A stretch of DNA of 64,000 bases from Phycisphaerae bacterium (GTDB lineage: Bacteria > Planctomycetota > Phycisphaerae > UBA1845 > PWPN01): contig JAGNEZ010000017.1 of the NCBI GenBank assembly GCA_018003015.1, positions 1 to 64,000 on the forward strand, written 5' to 3'. The notes under the pieces are model-generated. The model made no database searches and was not told the DNA's origin. It saw only the letters and a program-made list of their open reading frames with translations. Below are positions 10,639 to 45,759 of the stretch, one piece after another (positions within the stretch are counted from its first letter, which is position 1; each line of letters begins with the position of its first letter). The translations under genes and the position numbers were made by a program.

Positions 10639-11826
10639 CTACCGCGAAGCCTTAACCTCCACGGCGTAGACATGGGTCGCCCCGTGCATGTTGGACCGGA
10701 AGACGATCCACCGGCCATCGGGGGTGAAGCTGACGTTCGGCTCCAGGGCGTAGTCGTGCTTGCCCAGATCCACCAGCCGCTCGGCCTCGAGTTCGCCGTC
10801 CTTGGGCGTCAACAGATAAACCCACTGGCCATTTCCCGGGGCGGCAACACTCCTGGGACCCCCACCATCGCCTGCGAAAAACCGGCCGTCCGGAGAGACA
10901 TTGTAGTGCACCGACCAGTGCTCGCGCCGCACCTTGTACCTGATCCGTTCGCCGGTCGCGAGCACCAGGCCGGCCAGCCAGAAAACCCGCGAACGCGGCG
11001 TCTGCAGGTCGTACCAGATGATCTTGCCGTCGGGACTGAAAAACTCGTGTCCAGCAATCTCCATGTCCATCGCCCGGGTGTGGATCTTCCTCAGACCGGC
11101 CCCGTCGCTGCGGAGGGTCCAGATGCGATCCACCTTGTGCCAGGGCCCCTCGTGGCAGAACATGATCAGCCCCGGGTCCGTCGGCGAGAACTGCACGTGG
11201 TTGAGCCAGTCGTTGCTGGGGTGGAAGGTCTTCAAATCCCCCGTCCGAGTGTCGATTGTGTACAGACGCATCGGCACCCGGGCGGCCCAGCGCGCCTCCA
11301 GACTGCTCCTCGGCCCGGCAGGCCGCGTCCCCGCCGGCCTCGTGTCCACAGGCCGGGCCTCCGCGTCCGTACAACTGCCAGCCAGTAGCGTCTCGTCACT
11401 GTTGACCGCCAAGCCCGAGCCGGGTCGCAGCCCCACCGGAATTCGGGCGATCTGCCGCGTGGCACGGGTGTCGAGATGCGTGGCGTACACCCCGCCACCG
11501 CCCAGGTAATACACCTGCCGGCTCTTCCGGCCAACGACAACCTGGCTTACACGCCCCTCCACGACCGGCGCGATCCCCAGCGTCTCCAGGTCGATCGCGG
11601 CCAGCCCTCCGGGCACCGAAACCACCAGCTTGTCTCCCGAAGCCGTGTAGCCGTTCTGGTGAAAATAGAGACTCGCGCTGCCCGGTTCACGCGAGAGGCG
11701 AATCACCCGGTGGCCCGTGGAGGGCTCCATCCACTCGGTCGGCGGCTCATCCGCGGCCCAAGCCGGAGAACCCATCCCCACCAGAATCACAAGCACGTGC
11801 CATGATCGCCCCGGCGTCATTCCCAT
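10639..11826 (-). CDS. ogl: Oligogalacturonate lyase-like beta-propeller protein (PL22 type)
   Basis: The product is 395 aa with a signal peptide (MTPGRSWHVLVILVGMGSPAWA). The body is WD40/TolB-like, with family signatures of oligogalacturonate lyase: HPSNDWLNHVQFSPTDPGLI, FCHEGPWHKVDRIW, GHEFFSPDGKIIWYDLQ, REHWSVHYNVSPDGRFFAGD and NVSFTPDGRWIVFRSN. The conserved His residues in these blades are the Mn2+ ligands and catalytic residues of characterised members. Enterobacterial enzymes are cytoplasmic; this one appears to be exported. It would cleave short pectate oligomers to 5-keto-4-deoxyuronate. A Pro/Arg-rich stretch (PVDTRPAGTRPAGPRS) is an unusual loop. Two ATGs (11826, 11820) are both possible starts. 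Confidence 0.85.
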   Translation of the reverse strand: MGMTPGRSWHVLVILVGMGSPAWAADEPPTEWMEPSTGHRVIRLSREPGSASLYFHQNGYTASGDKLVVSVPGGLAAIDLETLGIAPVVEGRVSQVVVGRKSRQVYYLGGGGVYATHLDTRATRQIARIPVGLRPGSGLAVNSDETLLAGSCTDAEARPVDTRPAGTRPAGPRSSLEARWAARVPMRLYTIDTRTGDLKTFHPSNDWLNHVQFSPTDPGLIMFCHEGPWHKVDRIWTLRSDGAGLRKIHTRAMDMEIAGHEFFSPDGKIIWYDLQTPRSRVFWLAGLVLATGERIRYKVRREHWSVHYNVSPDGRFFAGDGGGPRSVAAPGNGQWVYLLTPKDGELEAERLVDLGKHDYALEPNVSFTPDGRWIVFRSNMHGATHVYAVEVKASR

Positions 11827-11886
11827 GTTCCGCCCACCCTCTCAAGTCGGCCCGGCCCGGTCCGATACAACTCCGCCGAAAGCCCT

Positions 11887-12169
11887 CTACATCCAGGAGT
11901 TCAACCGCTCACAACGTACGTCCCATCGACCGTTGCTGGGAAATCCTGGCCCCGGCTGGCTCACACAGCCCTCCCAACCGGCGGCCATCATCGCCACCGC
12001 GGCCGGCAAGCCCCCGTTCCCGGGTAGGTACGCGGTCAGACCGGGACGCTGATAGTTGTGACCGTTGGGATGATAGCGGTTCTTGGCCACCTCCATCAGC
12101 AGGGCACCAACCGCGAGCTCCGGTTCACCGGCACGGGCGGCGGCCATGGCAACCAGCGGCTCGGAACAC
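11887..12169 (-). pseudogene. C-terminal remnant of a glycoside-hydrolase-like protein
   Basis: Reading on the minus strand to the TAG at 11887, about 90 codons encode a well-formed protein end: EPLVAMAAARAGEPELAVGA, LLMEVAKNRYHPNGHNYQRP, GLTAYLPGNGGLPAAVAMMA, then PGFPSNGRWDVRCERLNSWM. This resembles, from recall, the C-terminal end of large planctomycete/lentisphaeral glycoside hydrolases; the exact family is not certain. No start codon or N-terminal domain precedes it. The frame runs backwards into the 3' end of the methyltransferase, which occupies another frame. The most likely reading is that a deletion fused the methyltransferase region to the tail of a lost hydrolase gene. Confidence 0.6.
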
Positions 12170-12982
12170 TCACCCGGCGCCGCCTGCCCTCCCGCCCGGC
12201 AGACACACCGCCCCCTTGGACTGTGGCAACGACTTGCGGGCCCGCACGAACGTCCAGCAGTTGTCCACCAGCGTGTCACCCTCCACATGCCGGAAACGAT
12301 GCAGCTCCTTGTACGCGGTTGGAGCCTCCAGATGAAGACGCCGAACCTCCTCCACCTGGGCGGCGGAACGCTGGTAGCGCTCCAGCCAGGCATGGAGCGA
12401 TTCCGTCGCTCGAATCTGCACGATCCGCACCACCACAAAGTCGGTCCGCATTAGGGCAACCAGCAGCTCGTGCAGTGTCAGACAGCGTCGCCTCAGCGGC
12501 TGACGGGTCTTGACGATCACCTTCCACCACTCCTCGTCGGCTTCTCCAAACGGGGTCATCTGCCCAACCACCAGAATGCCGGTCGCGGCCAGCACCCGGC
12601 GGATCTCCCGCAGACACCGATCCAGATCCTCGACGTAATGCAGACTCTGCCGGCAGGCCACGGCATCGAAGAAACCGTCGACCATCGGCAGTGCCTCGGC
12701 ATCACCACCGCACGTCAGGATGCGCGGATTCCGGACCTGGGCCAGCATCTCCTGCGAGAGATCAACGGCAACACATGGACCGAGCGATGGACACGCCGCC
12801 AACGCGGCCGCCAACACCGCTCCCGTGCCCGCACCCACGTCCAGGATCCGCTGACCCGCGGCCAGGCCCAGAAAGTCGAGCGTGACCCTCATGATCCCCG
12901 GATCATGCACCCACTCCGCCTTGTCATAGGATGCGGCCCGTTCCTTGAAGTGCTGAATGAGATCAAGCATCGGAGAATGCAC
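12170..12982 (-). CDS. Class I SAM-dependent methyltransferase
   Basis: The product is up to 270 aa. It has the Rossmann-fold SAM-binding motif I (RILDVGAGTGAVLAAAL), an acidic motif II (CVAVDLSQEMLAQV), a motif IV region (GFFDAVACRQSLHYVEDLDR) and post-motif sequence REIRRVLAATGILVVGQ, matching the ubiE/methyltransferase-11 superfamily. The start is either GTG 12982 or ATG 12970; the upstream AGGGTG suits the ATG slightly better. No signal peptide is seen, so it is cytoplasmic; the substrate is unknown. The last ~15 residues (VCLPGGRAGGAG) are low-complexity and lie exactly at the junction with the hydrolase remnant, so the native C-terminus may have been replaced. Confidence 0.85.
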   Translation of the reverse strand: MHSPMLDLIQHFKERAASYDKAEWVHDPGIMRVTLDFLGLAAGQRILDVGAGTGAVLAAALAACPSLGPCVAVDLSQEMLAQVRNPRILTCGGDAEALPMVDGFFDAVACRQSLHYVEDLDRCLREIRRVLAATGILVVGQMTPFGEADEEWWKVIVKTRQPLRRRCLTLHELLVALMRTDFVVVRIVQIRATESLHAWLERYQRSAAQVEEVRRLHLEAPTAYKELHRFRHVEGDTLVDNCWTFVRARKSLPQSKGAVCLPGGRAGGAG

Positions 12983-36490: not shown

Positions 36491-36926
36491 CTTTGCCGCC
36501 GGGGCTCGTCGCTACCTGTTATGTCACCCTGGCCGGACGGAAAGTTCGCTTGTTCCCTTTGATCATAGTTCGAAGGGCGTATGATTCCGGGGCAACGGTC
36601 GCGTTCTTCTCGCAGGATGAAGGAGAATGATCGGCAGGACCAATACGCGAATGGGGGAATAGGGGGGCGCTCGATGGGCGTCATCCTCGGGCAATCAGCG
36701 ATTCGGCCAGGATCGCGTCTATCCGGCTTTGAATGCGTTAACCCCAATAATATCAAATGATTACCATCGCCGAGCAAGCCGGGAGGACTTCCTCAAGGGT
36801 GCCTCGTCGGGGTTGTGAGGTTTTTCCGCCCCCCGATTTGATGTTTGGTTATTGTTAGGGTATACTAGATGATGCGTCACGGCCCAGGTCCTCTGGCTTG
36901 ATGGGCATGTTGGGAGGATGCGGGTC
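36491..36926. other. Divergent intergenic region, 436 bp
   Basis: Separates the pseudopilin (minus) from the umuD-like gene (plus). It contains an AT-rich patch (about 36745-36770) and, at its right end, a strong promoter-like pair. No gene was recognised inside. Confidence 0.45.
36838..36866 (+). promoter_or_regulatory. Sigma70-type promoter of the umuD-dinB-dnaE2 cassette
   Basis: TTGATG (36838-36843), a 17-base spacer and TATACT (36861-36866) form a near-consensus promoter about 60 bases upstream of the umuD-like start. A GTATAC palindrome overlaps the -10 box and could be part of an operator. No consensus LexA box of the known types (CTG-N10-CAG, GAAC-N4-GTTC or GTTC-N7-GTTC) was found, so damage control is inferred only from gene content. 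Confidence 0.6.
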
Positions 36927-37325
36927 ATGGAGATCGAACCACAAAACTTGTCTGGCGACGGGGAGGAGATCGCGAGCATACCGGCCGGGTGGCCGCAAGA
37001 GATCGAGGCCGGGTGTGTTCGGCTGGACCCGGTGGCCGTCCTGCGGGCCAACGGGCGGAGTTTCGCCCTCCGCGTTCGCGGGGAGTCGATGATTGGAGCC
37101 GACATTCACGACGGTGACGTGGTTGTCGGGGAGTTCACGCCCGAGGCTCGACCCGGGGCCATCGTCATCGCTCTCATCGACGGCGAATCCACGCTCAAAC
37201 GGCTGGTGACGCGTCACGGACGGCCGTACCTGGCGTCGGAGAATCCCAATCAGCCGAACCTCGTTCCGCTGGAGGAGCTGGTGATTCAGGGTGTGGCACA
37301 TACTGTTATTAGGAGGATAGGATAG
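36927..37325 (+). CDS. umuD: UmuD-like self-cleaving S24 peptidase
   Basis: The product is 132 aa from ATG 36927, placed by TGGGAGG nine bases upstream; an ATG at 36918 is less well spaced. There is no helix-turn-helix, so it is UmuD-like and not LexA. The catalytic pair is Ser54 (VRGESMIGADIHDGDVVV) and Lys91 (STLKRLV), 37 residues apart exactly as Ser60 and Lys97 in E. coli UmuD. A likely self-cleavage site Ala20-Gly21 lies in SIPAGWPQEIE, matching the Cys24-Gly25 region of UmuD. RecA-stimulated cleavage would turn it into an active partner of a translesion polymerase. It is the first gene of a plus-strand cassette with a Y-family polymerase and DnaE2. Confidence 0.9.
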   Translation: MEIEPQNLSGDGEEIASIPAGWPQEIEAGCVRLDPVAVLRANGRSFALRVRGESMIGADIHDGDVVVGEFTPEARPGAIVIALIDGESTLKRLVTRHGRPYLASENPNQPNLVPLEELVIQGVAHTVIRRIG

Positions 37326-37392
37326 CGATTAGCGATCAGCATTCAGCCAGACCATTCAACCGCTGACCGCTGACCGTTGCTGACTGCTACTC
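37324..37392 (+). repeat. 7-bp degenerate repeats between umuD and dinB
   Basis: AGCGATTAGCGATCAGC (37324-37340) in one orientation and CCGCTGACCGCTGACCG (from about 37360) in the other. The 7-base period unit is AGCGATC/AGCGGTC. The opposed copies can pair, giving a hairpin that fills the whole intergenic space up to the dinB start codon. Confidence 0.75.
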
Positions 37393-38610
37393 ATGCGTTC
37401 GATTCTCCATTTCGATGCCGATGCGTTTTTTGCCTCCGTGGAGCAGGCGGCGGATCGACGGCTGCGCGGGCGGGCGATCGTGGTGGGGGGGCTGCACCGG
37501 GGGATTGTGGCGTCGGCCAGCTATGAGGCCCGGGCGTTCGGCGTTTACACTCCGATGCCGGTAGCCAAGGCCCGCAAGCGGTGCCCGCATTTGATCGTCG
37601 TACCGCCCCGGTTCGAGTTGTATGAGCAGTTTTCGGATCATATCTTCGGTATGGCCGGCGAGGTGGCTCCGATTGTCGAGAAGCAAGGCGTGGACGAGGG
37701 CTACCTGGACCTGACCGGCACGCGGCAGTGTCTCCGGAAGGATCCGGAAGAGGTGGCCCAGGAGTTGCGAGCCAACGTCAAAGACTGGCTCAAGGTGACC
37801 ATCTCGCAGGGCCTGTCCCGCAACAAGCTGCTCAGCCAGATCGCCAGCAAGCTGTACAAGCCTGACGGGTTGACGGTCATTCCGCCGTGCGAGGATCGTG
37901 AGCTGGCGTTTCTGCACCCTTTGCCGGTCAAGTGGCTGCCGGGCGTCGGGCCGGCGGGGGCGCGGTTGATGCAGTCGGCGGGCCTGACCCGCATCGGCCA
38001 GGTGGCGGACATGCCGATGGACTGGCTGAGCGAGCTGATGGGCTCGTCCGCCCGGCAGCTCCGCGATTTTGCCCGTAACATCGACAACCGGCCAGTGGTG
38101 GCCGATCGGCCGGAGGCCCTTTCCTACGGGCACCAGGAGACCTTCGACGAAGATACGGCCGACGCCGTGTTCGTGGACGCCAAGCTGCGAGCGTTGGTCG
38201 ACCATGCCTTGGTGCGGTTGCGGGCGGATGCCAAGCAGGCCCGTACGGTCAGCGTCAAGATCCGCTACACGGACATGGACGAGCACCAGGGGCAGAGCAG
38301 CCTGGCCGAGCCGACCGACGTCGAGCAGGATATGTACCCTCTGCTGTCCAAGCTGCTCAAGCGATTGTGGGATCGGCGGGTAAGGCTCCGCATGGTCCAG
38401 GTCACGTTGACCAACGTCTACCATGGGTATCGGCAAATGGACCTGTTCGGCGTCAAGCAGAGGCAGCGCGACCTAGCGTTGACTTGCGAGGCAATCCGCG
38501 ACCGGCATGGCCGGAAGGCCCTGATGCGGGCTCATGATTGGGTGGTGAGTAGTGGTCAGAGCAGTCAGAGCGATCTGCAACCAGCGGTCAGCGATCAGAA
38601 TCAGCAATAG
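37393..38610 (+). CDS. dinB: Y-family DNA polymerase (DinB-like), catalytically intact
   Basis: The product is 405 aa. Palm-domain catalytic residues are present: Asp8 and Asp10 in HFDADAFFASVEQAA, with the steric-gate Phe13, and Asp101-Glu102 in GVDEGYLDLTG. The finger motif SYEARAFGVYTPMP and the thumb helix-hairpin-helix GVGPAGARLMQSAGLTRIGQ follow, then a little-finger domain. QMDLF (348-352) fits the beta-clamp-binding consensus. This is therefore an active translesion polymerase and not the inactive ImuB usually paired with DnaE2. The last ~20 residues (SGQSSQSDLQPAVSDQNQQ) are encoded by 7-bp repeat DNA and look like a read-through extension. No ribosome site is visible; the start codon directly abuts repeat sequence. 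Confidence 0.92.
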   Translation: MRSILHFDADAFFASVEQAADRRLRGRAIVVGGLHRGIVASASYEARAFGVYTPMPVAKARKRCPHLIVVPPRFELYEQFSDHIFGMAGEVAPIVEKQGVDEGYLDLTGTRQCLRKDPEEVAQELRANVKDWLKVTISQGLSRNKLLSQIASKLYKPDGLTVIPPCEDRELAFLHPLPVKWLPGVGPAGARLMQSAGLTRIGQVADMPMDWLSELMGSSARQLRDFARNIDNRPVVADRPEALSYGHQETFDEDTADAVFVDAKLRALVDHALVRLRADAKQARTVSVKIRYTDMDEHQGQSSLAEPTDVEQDMYPLLSKLLKRLWDRRVRLRMVQVTLTNVYHGYRQMDLFGVKQRQRDLALTCEAIRDRHGRKALMRAHDWVVSSGQSSQSDLQPAVSDQNQQ

Positions 38611-38763
38611 GCGAAGAGAGGTGAACTGGCGAAACGCCGAGGGCGCCGAGAAGCATTAGGAGTTTTAAATGGACGACCAAGATCTGGGGGCGAGAGGTGA
38701 ATTCTGAAATCCGAAGCAGCTGATTGCTGCGGATTGCTGGCCGCTGATCGCAGACTGCTACTC
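38550..38763 (+). repeat. Inverted 7-bp repeat pair flanking the dinB-dnaE2 junction
   Basis: Forward copies lie at 38550-38610 within the 3' end of dinB (AGTGGTCAGAGCAGTCAGAG, AGCGGTCAGCGATCAG). Reverse copies lie at 38715-38763 (CCGCTGATCGC, then GACTGCTACTC up to the dnaE2 ATG). GCGATCAG (38591-38598) pairs with CTGATCGC (38744-38751), and CAGCAAT (38602-38608) with ATTGCTG (38723-38729 or 38733-38739). The ~100 bases between are non-coding. Confidence 0.7.
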
Positions 38764-41700
38764 ATGTTCCTTTCGCTGCACAATCGTTCCGCTCATTCGT
38801 TCGGGTCGTCGTTGACCACGCCGGCGCAGCTGATGGAGTTCGCGGTGCGGCATGGGATGTCCGCGATCGCGTTGACCGATTTGCACGGGCTTTACGGGGT
38901 GGTGGCGTTTCAGCAGGCCTGCGAGAAGGCGGGGATCCGGCCGGTGATCGGTGCTGAACTGATGCTGCGGGACGGCCCGGCGGTGACGATGCTTGTGCGC
39001 AACTCGATCGGGTACGGCCACCTCTGCCGGCTGGTATCGACGCATCACCTGCGCGAGGAGCCGTTGGGGATTGCGGATCTGTGCGCCCATGCGGAGGGGT
39101 TGTGGTGTTTGTTGGGGAGCGGTCAGCGATCAGCGGTGAGCGGTCAGCAAGAAGGGCGAGAGGGTGCTGTGGGCAGGTTGAGGACGATGCTCAACTCGGG
39201 CGCTCTTCGTGAGGCGTTCGCGGGGTGGCTGTACGTTGAGTTGGCGATTCACCATCCCGACGATGCGGCCGAGGCCCGGCGGCGGGGGCGGACGGCGGAT
39301 GAGGCGGGGGTGCCGGTTGTGGCCACGTGCGAGTCACGGTGTCCGCGGCCGGAGATGAACCCGATCCTGCGAGCCTTGGCTTCGATCGGCACCCTGACCC
39401 TATTGGGCGTCCCGCACGCGGACAAGCCGCTTGGGCGGTGGCATCTGCGCACCCCGGCGGAGATGGCGCGGCTTTTCCGTCGCCGGCCGGACGCATTGAC
39501 GAACACGGCGGCCATCGCCGAGCAATGTGACTTCCGGTTTGACTTTTCGAGCAACCGGTTTCCGGCGTTTGATGCGCCCGACGGCAAGACGGCCGTGCGG
39601 TATCTGCGCGAGTTGTGTGTGGCCGGCTGCCGGCGGCGGTATGTGGATGAGCTGCCGCAGCGAGGGATCGGTGGACGGCGGCCGTCGATGGCGGAGGCTC
39701 TGAGCCGGCTGGATCGCGAGTTGGCGGTGATCGAGCAGGTTGGCTATGCGGAGTACTTCCTGGTTTTCCACGAGATCGTCTCCTACTGCCGCGGTCGGGG
39801 CATCGCCACGCTGGCCCGGGGGTCGGCGGCCGACTCGCTGGTCTGTTACGCGCTGGGTGTGAGCCACGCCTGCCCGTTCCGGTTTGACCTTCCGTTTGAT
39901 CGTTTCCTCAACCCGGAGCGAGCCAAGTTCAGCAAGATGGCCGACATCGATCTGGACTTGCCCTGGGACCGGCGCGAGGAGGTCATGCGCTGGGTGTACG
40001 AGCGCTGGGGACACGATCGAGTGGCGATGATCGGGGCGGCCAACACTTACCGGGCGCGGGCGGCGGTAGCCGAACTGGGCAAGGTCTACGGTCTTCCGCC
40101 GCATGAGATCCACAAGTTTACGAGGCGATTGCCCTGGTTTGGGCGAGTCGCGGATTTCCAGGCGGGCGGCGAGGAGGAGCGGGAGGAAGCCGGAGCGATA
40201 GGCGGAGGGCCGCCGCCTCATCGTCAAGAGGAGCGTCACCGGGCGATCGCTCGCCCAGGCAGCGCGCAACTCGAGGAGCCCTACCGCACCATCCTCCGGA
40301 CCGCCGGGGCACTGGAAGGATTGCCGCATCATTGGTCGATGCACCCTTGCGGGTTGGTGGTATCGCCGGAGTCGTTGACCGCGCTGGTGCCGGTGCAGCG
40401 TTCACCGCGCGGCTTGCTGGTTGCCCAGTACGACATGGACGCGATCGAGGATCTGGGCTTCATCAAGATCGACCTGCTCGGCCAGGCAGGGTTGTCCGTG
40501 CTCCGTGACAGTGTGGCGGAGATCAACCGCACCGAGCGCGAGCCGATCGATCTGGCCACGGACGTGGACTACTCGGACGACCGGACCTGGTCGATGATTG
40601 CCAGTGGCGGCGCCCGGGGTGTGCATCACATTGAATCGCCCGCCATGACCAGTCTGATTCGCCAGTGTAACTGCCGGGACATTGACGCGCTGACCGCGAT
40701 TGTAGCCATTATCCGGCCGGGTGCGGCCAACCAGGGCAAGAAGGACCGGTTTGCCCGCCGCTACCAGGGGCTCGAGCCGGCGAGCTACGTGCATCCCGCG
40801 ATCGAGAATTCGCTGGCGAGCACCTATGGGCTGATGGTCTTCGAAGAGCACATTCTGCAGGTGGTGGTGGATTTCGCGGGGATGAACCTCGGCCGGGCGG
40901 ACGTGCTCCGTCGGGCATTGAACAAGCAGAAGCGGGAGCTGATCGCCGAGTTGAAGGGCGAGTTCTGGAGCAGCGCCCGCCGGATGGGTCGTCGCGAGGA
41001 CGAGATCGCGGCGGTGTGGGACATGGTCGGCGGATTCTGCGGATTCATGTTCAACAAGGCCCACTCGGCCGAGTACGCGGTCGAGGCCTTCCAGGGCGCG
41101 TGGCTCAAGTGCCGCTGGCCGGCGCATTATCTGGCGGCCATTCTCTCCAACTACCGCGGCTTTTACGCCCAATCGCCGACATTGCCGCAAATCCTGTACG
41201 TGCTCGAGGCTCTGCGATTGGGGGTCGGCTTCCGCCCGCCGTGCGTCAATCGCTCGGGCCCGCGATTCCGCGTCGAACGAAGCGAGAGTGATGGCCGGGG
41301 GTTCATTCGCGTGCCGCTGAGTCACATTCAAGGTCTGTCCGAGGCATGGTTGGACCGCTACCACGGCGAGCGAGAACGAGGCCTGTTCATCGACCTGGCG
41401 GATTTCATTGAGCGATGCCGGCCGGGCGACGCGGAATCCCAGTTGTTGCTCGACAGCGGGGCGCTCGATGCACTGGGTGAAAACCGGTCGGCGATGTTCT
41501 GGCAGATGCGGCGATTGCTCAAGGAGAGCCGTCGGGGCGGGAGCCTGTTTGCGGCACACCCGCGGCGCGGCAACTCGCCCGTGGACCCTTCCTCAAGCGA
41601 TCGCCAGTCGCCCGGTCTGCCGATCCGTCTCACCCGCCCCGACGTCTGGCAGACTGCCCAGCGGGAGATGGAACTGCTCGGCTTTCCAATCACGATGGAG

Positions 41701-42051
41701 CCGCTGACTTTCCTGAGCCGCGACGACAGGGGTCGGTACATTGACTGGCCGGGTTACACGCCGGTGAGCGAACTGAGCGTTCGTTCACGGCGGCGGGTCG
41801 CGGTCTGCGGCCTGATGGTGGCCGACCGGCTCAATACCACGTCAGGCGGCGAGATGATGAAGTTCGTCACCCTGGCCGACCGCACCGGTTTCGTCGAGGC
41901 GATTTTGTTTCCCGACACCTACCGGCATTTCGGTCACTTGACGGTGAGTCAGCCGATCCTGGCTGCGACGGGTGTCCTCGAACCGTTCGAAAACGGCAAC
42001 GGCTTCGCGTTTCGCGTGGAGCGGGTCGAGCCGCCACGCAGAGTTGGCTGA
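38764..42051 (+). CDS. dnaE2: DnaE2-type error-prone DNA polymerase III alpha subunit
   Basis: The product is 1095 aa, within the usual DnaE2 range and shorter than replicative DnaE. The start at 38764 gives the PHP domain opening SLHNRSAHSFGSSLTTP; the expected metal-binding HxH is altered (HNRSAH), as is common in DnaE2. The polymerase core contains YFLVFHEIVSYCRGRGI, ARGSAADSLVCYALGVS, the catalytic aspartates in KMADIDLDLPW, and GFCGFMFNKAHSAEYAVEAF. An OB domain near the C-terminus reads VAVCGLMVADRLNTTSGGEM. Residues about 118-135 (SGQRSAVSGQQ) are encoded by an inserted 7-bp repeat in a PHP-domain loop. It extends mismatched or damaged ends during induced mutagenesis with the upstream UmuD and DinB partners. 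Confidence 0.9.
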   Translation: MFLSLHNRSAHSFGSSLTTPAQLMEFAVRHGMSAIALTDLHGLYGVVAFQQACEKAGIRPVIGAELMLRDGPAVTMLVRNSIGYGHLCRLVSTHHLREEPLGIADLCAHAEGLWCLLGSGQRSAVSGQQEGREGAVGRLRTMLNSGALREAFAGWLYVELAIHHPDDAAEARRRGRTADEAGVPVVATCESRCPRPEMNPILRALASIGTLTLLGVPHADKPLGRWHLRTPAEMARLFRRRPDALTNTAAIAEQCDFRFDFSSNRFPAFDAPDGKTAVRYLRELCVAGCRRRYVDELPQRGIGGRRPSMAEALSRLDRELAVIEQVGYAEYFLVFHEIVSYCRGRGIATLARGSAADSLVCYALGVSHACPFRFDLPFDRFLNPERAKFSKMADIDLDLPWDRREEVMRWVYERWGHDRVAMIGAANTYRARAAVAELGKVYGLPPHEIHKFTRRLPWFGRVADFQAGGEEEREEAGAIGGGPPPHRQEERHRAIARPGSAQLEEPYRTILRTAGALEGLPHHWSMHPCGLVVSPESLTALVPVQRSPRGLLVAQYDMDAIEDLGFIKIDLLGQAGLSVLRDSVAEINRTEREPIDLATDVDYSDDRTWSMIASGGARGVHHIESPAMTSLIRQCNCRDIDALTAIVAIIRPGAANQGKKDRFARRYQGLEPASYVHPAIENSLASTYGLMVFEEHILQVVVDFAGMNLGRADVLRRALNKQKRELIAELKGEFWSSARRMGRREDEIAAVWDMVGGFCGFMFNKAHSAEYAVEAFQGAWLKCRWPAHYLAAILSNYRGFYAQSPTLPQILYVLEALRLGVGFRPPCVNRSGPRFRVERSESDGRGFIRVPLSHIQGLSEAWLDRYHGERERGLFIDLADFIERCRPGDAESQLLLDSGALDALGENRSAMFWQMRRLLKESRRGGSLFAAHPRRGNSPVDPSSSDRQSPGLPIRLTRPDVWQTAQREMELLGFPITMEPLTFLSRDDRGRYIDWPGYTPVSELSVRSRRRVAVCGLMVADRLNTTSGGEMMKFVTLADRTGFVEAILFPDTYRHFGHLTVSQPILAATGVLEPFENGNGFAFRVERVEPPRRVG
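39118..39151 (+). repeat. 7-bp tandem repeat inserted inside dnaE2
   Basis: About five units of AGCGGTC/AGCGATC/AGCGGTG in tandem. They are read in frame as GSGQRSAVSGQQ in a loop of the PHP domain, at a place where homologues usually have a short turn. Confidence 0.75.
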
Positions 42052-45730: not shown

Positions 45731-45759
45731 CAGCGATCAGCAGTCAGCGATCAGTCATC
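45731..45759. repeat. Outlying copy of the 7-bp repeat
   Basis: CAGCGATCAGCAGTCAGCGA and following bases, in the short leader of the inositol-phosphatase-like gene. It is the only copy seen outside the umuD-dinB-dnaE2 block and again abuts a start codon. Confidence 0.7.

Follow-up and report, generated by a model that had tools for sequence, protein, structure and literature searches.

The window, by which we mean the whole 64 kb stretch of Phycisphaerae DNA analysed here, carries a cassette (36838-42051) in which an S24 (UmuD-like) protein, a Y-family DNA polymerase (PolY) and DnaE2 are encoded one after another, all on the + strand. We consider it probable that this cassette specifies a LexA-regulated, SOS-induced inserter-extender mutasome (PolY-DnaE2-RecA), a putative complex with a LexA-derived UmuD'-like subunit. 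In eukaryotes, pairs of Y-family and B-family polymerases perform two-step bypass. More tentatively, as a possibility that we would not quite call probable, two active polymerases of different families may form one machine across Planctomycetota and Verrucomicrobiota, covalently joined in the latter, as a bacterial counterpart of the inserter-extender pair of eukaryotes, and a cassette LexA may, apparently more than once, have turned into a UmuD-like polymerase subunit by losing its DNA-binding domain. PolY and PolA of Bacillus subtilis have been proposed to bypass lesions as a pair in two steps (PMC13335488).

The three-gene cassette and its host genome

The features of the cassette are as follows:
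36838-36866, + strand: promoter-like element TTGATG-N17-TATACT with a putative SOS box (promoter scan)
36843-36859, + strand: putative SOS box GTTTGGTTATTGTTAGG, inside the promoter-like element
36918-37325, + strand: S24 autoprotease-like protein without a DNA-binding domain, 135 aa (PF00717, E = 1.3e-18)
36927, + strand: alternative ATG of S24
36984-36989, + strand: A23-G24 of S24, putative cleavage site
37086-37088 and 37197-37199, + strand: S57 and K94 of S24, the Ser-Lys dyad
37331-37377, unstranded: short dispersed repeat (AGCGATCAGC family) between the S24 and PolY genes
37393-38610, + strand: Y-family DNA polymerase (DinB-like), 405 aa, catalytic residues intact (Pfam IMS and IMS_C)
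37414-37416 and 37420-37422, + strand: D8 and D10 of PolY
37693-37695 and 37696-37698, + strand: D101 and E102 of PolY
38434-38448, + strand: beta-clamp binding motif QMDLF, PolY residues 348-352
38455-38529, + strand: RecA-NT-like motif, PolY residues 355-379 approximately (profile-profile match, predicted helix 354-372)
38583-38603, unstranded: repeat of the same AGCGATCAGC family, 3' end of the PolY gene
38764-42051, + strand: DnaE2, a second C-family polymerase, about 1,095 aa
39943-39945, 39949-39951 and 40471-40473, + strand: catalytic D394, D396 and D570 of DnaE2

A preliminary description of this DNA had proposed a three-gene locus beginning at 36838, which is the first base of the TTGATG-17-TATACT pair, and the gene calls and Pfam domains bear the locus out. 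The four catalytic carboxylates of PolY and the QMDLF motif that it listed are all present in the sequence, and its Ser-Lys positions 54/91 in S24 are right when counted from the second ATG (36927); from the ATG at 36918 the dyad is S57/K94, with a spacing of 37, and the Ala-Gly pair is at 23/24. The structure model of PolY has a pLDDT of 85. DnaE2 has the Pfam domains PHP, DNA_pol3_alpha, finger, HHH_6 and, as the last one, OB; the domain matches end there and no C-terminal domain was found. Its first PHP motif is degenerate (HNR for HxH). For its start we favour the ATG at 38764 (MFLSLHNRS...), a TTG at 38734 appearing less likely from the sequence. The last residues of PolY are specific to the species, since a dispersed repeat lies at the 3' end of its gene. 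Short repeats of the AGCGGTCAGCGATCAGC family are found in the window at 37331-37377, 38583-38603, 39118-39153 and 45731-45759, that is, in both gaps of the cassette, in the DnaE2 frame (where the repeat codes for SGQRSAVSGQQ) and near the start of an inositol-monophosphatase gene; there are 12 word hits versus 1.2 in shuffles.

The host genome (6.86 Mb in 144 contigs, 98.7% complete) has one further DnaE, encoded on contig 34, which is 32% identical to the cassette DnaE used as the query. Genome-wide, the Y-family profile matches the cassette PolY alone and reveals no second Y-family enzyme; the RecA profile matches a single RecA and no ImuA. Neither ImuB nor a separate DinB was found in this genome, nor was an ImuB-C domain, linked or standalone. 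The absence of imuA and imuB, which the preliminary description put forward as a check, thus holds, and there is no imuAB-dnaE2 cassette elsewhere in the genome. Of the two sequence-level findings that it had named as speaking against its proposal, a second cassette of this kind did not turn up, and unlinked genes in relatives were seen only in G044. ImuB-C was also considered as a part of the cassette and rejected; four relatives have unlinked copies of it. The LexA profile finds a full-length LexA on contig 9, the cassette S24 and one weak partial match.

The RecA-NT-like match of PolY is significant at the profile level only: helix 354-372 aligns in register with the RecA N-terminus at E = 5.6e-4, with 0 of 40 column shuffles scoring as well, whereas single-sequence matches are weak, and 53 of 500 shuffles did at least as well as the window sequence. 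PolY scores 87 bits against the UmuC model (cut-off 431) and 261.5 against the Pol IV model PRK02406 (cut-off 256); as judged from these models, PolY is DinB-like and not a UmuC orthologue. UmuC is described as holding UmuD' through its C-terminal tail (PMC6511836). PolY has no conserved UmuC-like, UmuD'-binding tail past the RecA-NT region, and therefore binding between S24 and PolY would need another surface.

Conservation of the cassette and the PolY-DnaE2 fusion

Orthologues of PolY (66-97% identity) are present in 11 of the 101 genomes of the order, the next Y-family group being less than 40% identical; these relatives are mostly metagenome-assembled genomes. Checking the gene order across them, we found S24, PolY and DnaE2 adjacent, in the same order and on the same strand, in eight genomes (G000, G032, G024, G016, G011, G030, G079 and G092) that span eight or fewer genera and two families. 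In the nearest relative, G032, DnaE2 starts close behind the stop codon of PolY. In G020 all three genes stand in a row up to the contig end, and in G052 the contig ends beside PolY, just upstream of it. The one exception to linkage is G044, in which PolY and DnaE2 are together and S24, retaining an operator-like site of its own, is on another contig between unrelated genes; S24 is thus not part of one operon everywhere. Orthologues of S24 are encoded in all PolY-bearing genomes, with the exception of G052. With dN/dS values of 0.06-0.19, S24 is under purifying selection, and its interpretation as a pseudogene was rejected.

Two further observations concern neighbouring genes and a more distant cassette. 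A DUF72-like gene, recognized by inspection of its protein, lies beside the split-off S24 of G044 (L065, 2564-4266), and a gene annotated as DUF72-family separates lexA from the Y-family gene in the lexA-PolY-DnaE2 cassette on a Desulfosarcina plasmid (L186, 1839-7614). In G005, from another family of the order, a full-length LexA, a Y-family protein and a DnaE make up a divergent cassette (L070, 2445-9033) that is about 30% identical.

Scanning 84,980 species genomes with the PolY alignment gave 10 loci in Phycisphaerae plus 70 others that are 45-54% identical and titled mainly as Verrucomicrobiota; a few of the titles ('Klebsiella pneumoniae', 'Akkermansia muciniphila') are metagenome labels and perhaps unreliable. 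In at least 54 loci, mainly from Verrucomicrobiota, PolY and DnaE2 share a single open frame that runs for over 1,250 codons without a break, giving a fused protein of ~1,400 residues; many of the shorter cases are contig ends. A whole-genome search confirmed the fusion in seven genomes, with single frames 1,371 to 1,577 codons long; one of the seven is Verrucomicrobia bacterium LW23, a genome not labelled as metagenome-assembled. With a strict cut, 289 Verrucomicrobiota genomes yielded two full-length matches and one to DnaE2 only, so that the fusion is patchily distributed and the 54 loci represent a selection. LW23 (L195, G102) has, besides the fusion, a third DnaE that groups with the imuAB-type DnaE2.

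In the 62 aligned sequences (8 from Phycisphaerae and 54 fusions), D8, D10, D101 and E102 of PolY and the three catalytic aspartates of DnaE2 are invariant; the search pattern DADAFFAS favours D8 and D10 and not the other five carboxylates. The three aspartates are, we assume from the aligned motifs and established knowledge, the counterparts of E. coli D401, D403 and D555. The clamp motif Q-x-D-L-F is present in all eight Phycisphaerae sequences and has been lost in the Verrucomicrobiota fusions, so recruitment of the clamp via PolY is not constant. Most of the 62 sequences have a degenerate first PHP motif, as has been reported for DnaE2 (PMC12926913).

Both polymerase trees pair the Phycisphaerae cassettes with those of Verrucomicrobiota (support 100/99 for PolY and 99/100 for DnaE). 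The PolY tree leaves out Deinococcus ImuY and two ImuB rows, which the PolY profile missed. In the DnaE tree, which took in one wrong row (L079, a shadow ORF) and in which the rows from Streptomyces and Deinococcus form long branches, the cassette DnaE2 stands apart from both the replicative DnaE1 and the imuAB-type DnaE2, and the pairing is starred when these rows are left out. There is also a weak grouping (81/33) with the Desulfosarcina lexA-PolY-DnaE2, in a tree that contains no Bacteroidetes reference. The natural fusion of these genes in a neighbouring phylum suggests that both polymerases copy damaged DNA together, and with both active sites intact it would allow one- and two-polymerase models of DnaE2 bypass to be tested with a single protein.

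Origin of the S24 protein and a probable SOS box

The only Pfam domain of the cassette S24 is Peptidase_S24, the N-terminal DNA-binding domain being absent. The Phycisphaerae and Verrucomicrobiota cassette proteins group together in the S24 tree (99/97), at a distance from the Phycisphaerae hosts' genomic LexA, to which the cassette S24 is about 39% identical. At the fusion loci the preceding gene, mostly within 50 bases, usually encodes a full LexA with its DNA-binding domain; at Prosthecobacter-like loci this LexA is about 155 aa long and has a decayed N-terminus. The pairing in the tree therefore marks the cassette S24 as a LexA minus its DNA-binding domain and not as a UmuD orthologue: it looks like the cassette's own LexA after loss of that domain. 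The name UmuD given to it in the preliminary description thus fits neither its grouping with the Verrucomicrobiota cassette LexA nor a PolY without a conserved UmuC-like tail.

The Ala-Gly site and the Ser-Lys dyad are kept in most S24 members. Both S24 copies of G092 (L063, 6193-6540; L069, 3547-3876) start downstream of where the cleavage site would be and carry Arg instead of the catalytic Lys, like a ready-made UmuD'; such a pre-shortened form fits a structural role of the processed protein. The model of S24 has a LexA/UmuD' fold (Foldseek) and an unstructured N-terminal arm (pLDDT 73 overall, below 50 in the arm). At several Prosthecobacter-like loci (L127, L130, L138, L144-L147, L150 and L153), where the DNA-binding domain of the cassette LexA is decayed, an intact TGTTC-N4-GAACA lies upstream; this decay is apparently a second, independent loss. 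The series from a full LexA through a decayed helix-turn-helix (HTH) and no HTH to a pre-truncated protein would show a polymerase subunit arising from a repressor.

The Phycisphaerae cassettes share, with some divergence, a TTGAYR/TATACT promoter with the direct repeat GTTYGG-N5-GTTMGG between its two elements. In ten whole genomes this pattern has 20 matches versus 1 for the reversed pattern, and the box core occurs once in the 64 kb window. The box also precedes the genomic lexA operon (in G000, G032, G020 and G044), and its core lies close upstream of recA, in reverse orientation, at six of six recA loci of the cassette host's family; it is not upstream of recA at the two loci examined from the other family. 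Further matches precede unrelated genes and may be due to chance. We propose GTTYGG-N5-GTTMGG as the probable SOS box of Phycisphaerae. Since the cassette, lexA and recA have this operator-like element in common, damage induction of the cassette is likely. The box has the same 11-base period as the alphaproteobacterial box GTTC-N7-GTTC (cited in PMC8565304). No LexA boxes of the E. coli or Verrucomicrobia type precede the window cassette; the cassette lexA of Verrucomicrobiota has YTGT-N8-ACAR just upstream in 21 of 55 cases, the expectation from shuffles for YTGT-N8-ACAR or TGTTC-N4-GAACA being 0.35 sequences. A partial literature search by title and abstract returned no paper about a planctomycete LexA motif, and the proposed box would give a starting point for studying the SOS response in Phycisphaerae.

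In four Phycisphaerae an open frame of 200-320 aa lies between the box-like site and the genomic lexA (on contig C9 of G000 at about 11623-12715; L177, L183, L167 and L175). It overlaps the lexA start, and LPLCVFGPGG and WPLVVxGPDGL are conserved in it.

Proposed mechanism and comparison with known systems

On the reading that we favour, DNA damage would lead to cleavage of the genomic LexA and derepression of the operon, as suggested by the box common to lexA and recA. PolY would dock on the beta clamp via QMDLF and on RecA via its RecA-NT-like helix, both contacts being predicted from the motifs, and would insert a nucleotide opposite the lesion; DnaE2, presumably tethered to PolY as the Verrucomicrobiota fusion implies, would extend the distorted end. 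RecA-stimulated cleavage of S24 at A23-G24 may then supply a UmuD'-like subunit or a licence for the complex, a step supported by G092 because this relative encodes the post-cleavage form only. The preliminary description had envisaged one controller; two levels seem more apt, transcriptional control that the genomic LexA would exert, as the box suggests, and a possible second, proteolytic step at S24.

Genes can be linked and share a promoter without their products forming a complex, and PolY has a clamp motif of its own. The three genes might accordingly be merely co-induced, with PolY and DnaE2 acting on separate lesions from a common SOS promoter and S24 serving as an independent UmuD-like brake or surviving as a repressor relic; the separation of S24 from the polymerases in G044, where it has its own box, would suit this arrangement. 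We think it unlikely, given that PolY and DnaE2 form one polypeptide in Verrucomicrobiota and that S24 is under purifying selection. Less likely still is a use of PolY in the manner of ImuB, mainly as a clamp and RecA adaptor for DnaE2, with its catalytic residues kept for minor or separate lesions. In the cassettes studied so far, DnaE2 does the synthesis and its Y-family partner is accessory (PMC6511836, PMC8072749). Yet D101 and E102 are invariant in 62 of 62 sequences, as are the D8 and D10 favoured by the search pattern, and PolY is the sole Y-family match in most of the cassette-bearing genomes searched.

The repressor descent of S24, together with the Ala-Gly site and dyad kept in most members, also fits a purely regulatory protein, that is, a truncated LexA that stays apart from the polymerases and modulates the SOS response, either as a partner of the genomic LexA or as a competitor for RecA filaments. 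We regard this as the most improbable of the alternatives: the G092 copies have neither the cleavage site nor the lysine, the orthologues accompany this PolY in all genomes but G052, and identity to the genomic LexA is only about 39%.

The preliminary description recognized only umuDC and imuABC cassettes, a view that is outdated because active PolY plus DnaE2 without ImuA or ImuB had already been described: such operons were reported in 2019, with relatives that often include lexA (PMC6511836), and were classed as DnaE2B-PolY-RecA in 2026 (PMC12926913). Within the text searched, neither paper mentions a PolY-DnaE2 fusion or a UmuD with DnaE2. The literature searched, with partial coverage that makes priority uncertain, likewise has no mention of the fusion or of a cassette of this kind whose S24 protein lacks the DNA-binding domain.

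Like the DnaE2B-PolY-RecA systems of Bacteroidetes (e.g. Cellulophaga algicola), the present cassette has two apparently active polymerases, a RecA-NT motif in PolY and no imuA or imuB in the genome; it differs in having an S24 protein without a DNA-binding domain, in its planctomycete host and in the fusion of its two polymerases in Verrucomicrobiota. With Pol V (UmuD'2-UmuC-RecA) it shares an S24 protein that has the Ala-Gly site and Ser-Lys dyad, lacks a DNA-binding domain and precedes an active Y-family polymerase with a RecA-NT-like motif, whereas its PolY is DinB-like without the UmuC tail, its S24 comes from LexA and DnaE2 is added. The imuA-imuB-dnaE2 mutasome is also an SOS cassette of a Y-family protein and DnaE2, from which the present one differs by the absence of ImuA, by a catalytically intact Y-family member without ImuB-C and by a DnaE2 outside the imuAB-type group. 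The nearest experimentally studied cassette is lexA-imuY-imuB-C-dnaE2 of Deinococcus, which is SOS-controlled, lacks imuA and likewise begins with an S24 protein, followed by a Y-family protein and then DnaE2; the Deinococcus cassette differs in its ImuY, which is predicted to be inactive, in a LexA that is a full repressor and in having a standalone ImuB-C. Set against these systems, what appears to be new here is the PolY-DnaE2 fusion, the probable SOS box of Phycisphaerae and the UmuD'-like, pre-shortened S24 of one relative.
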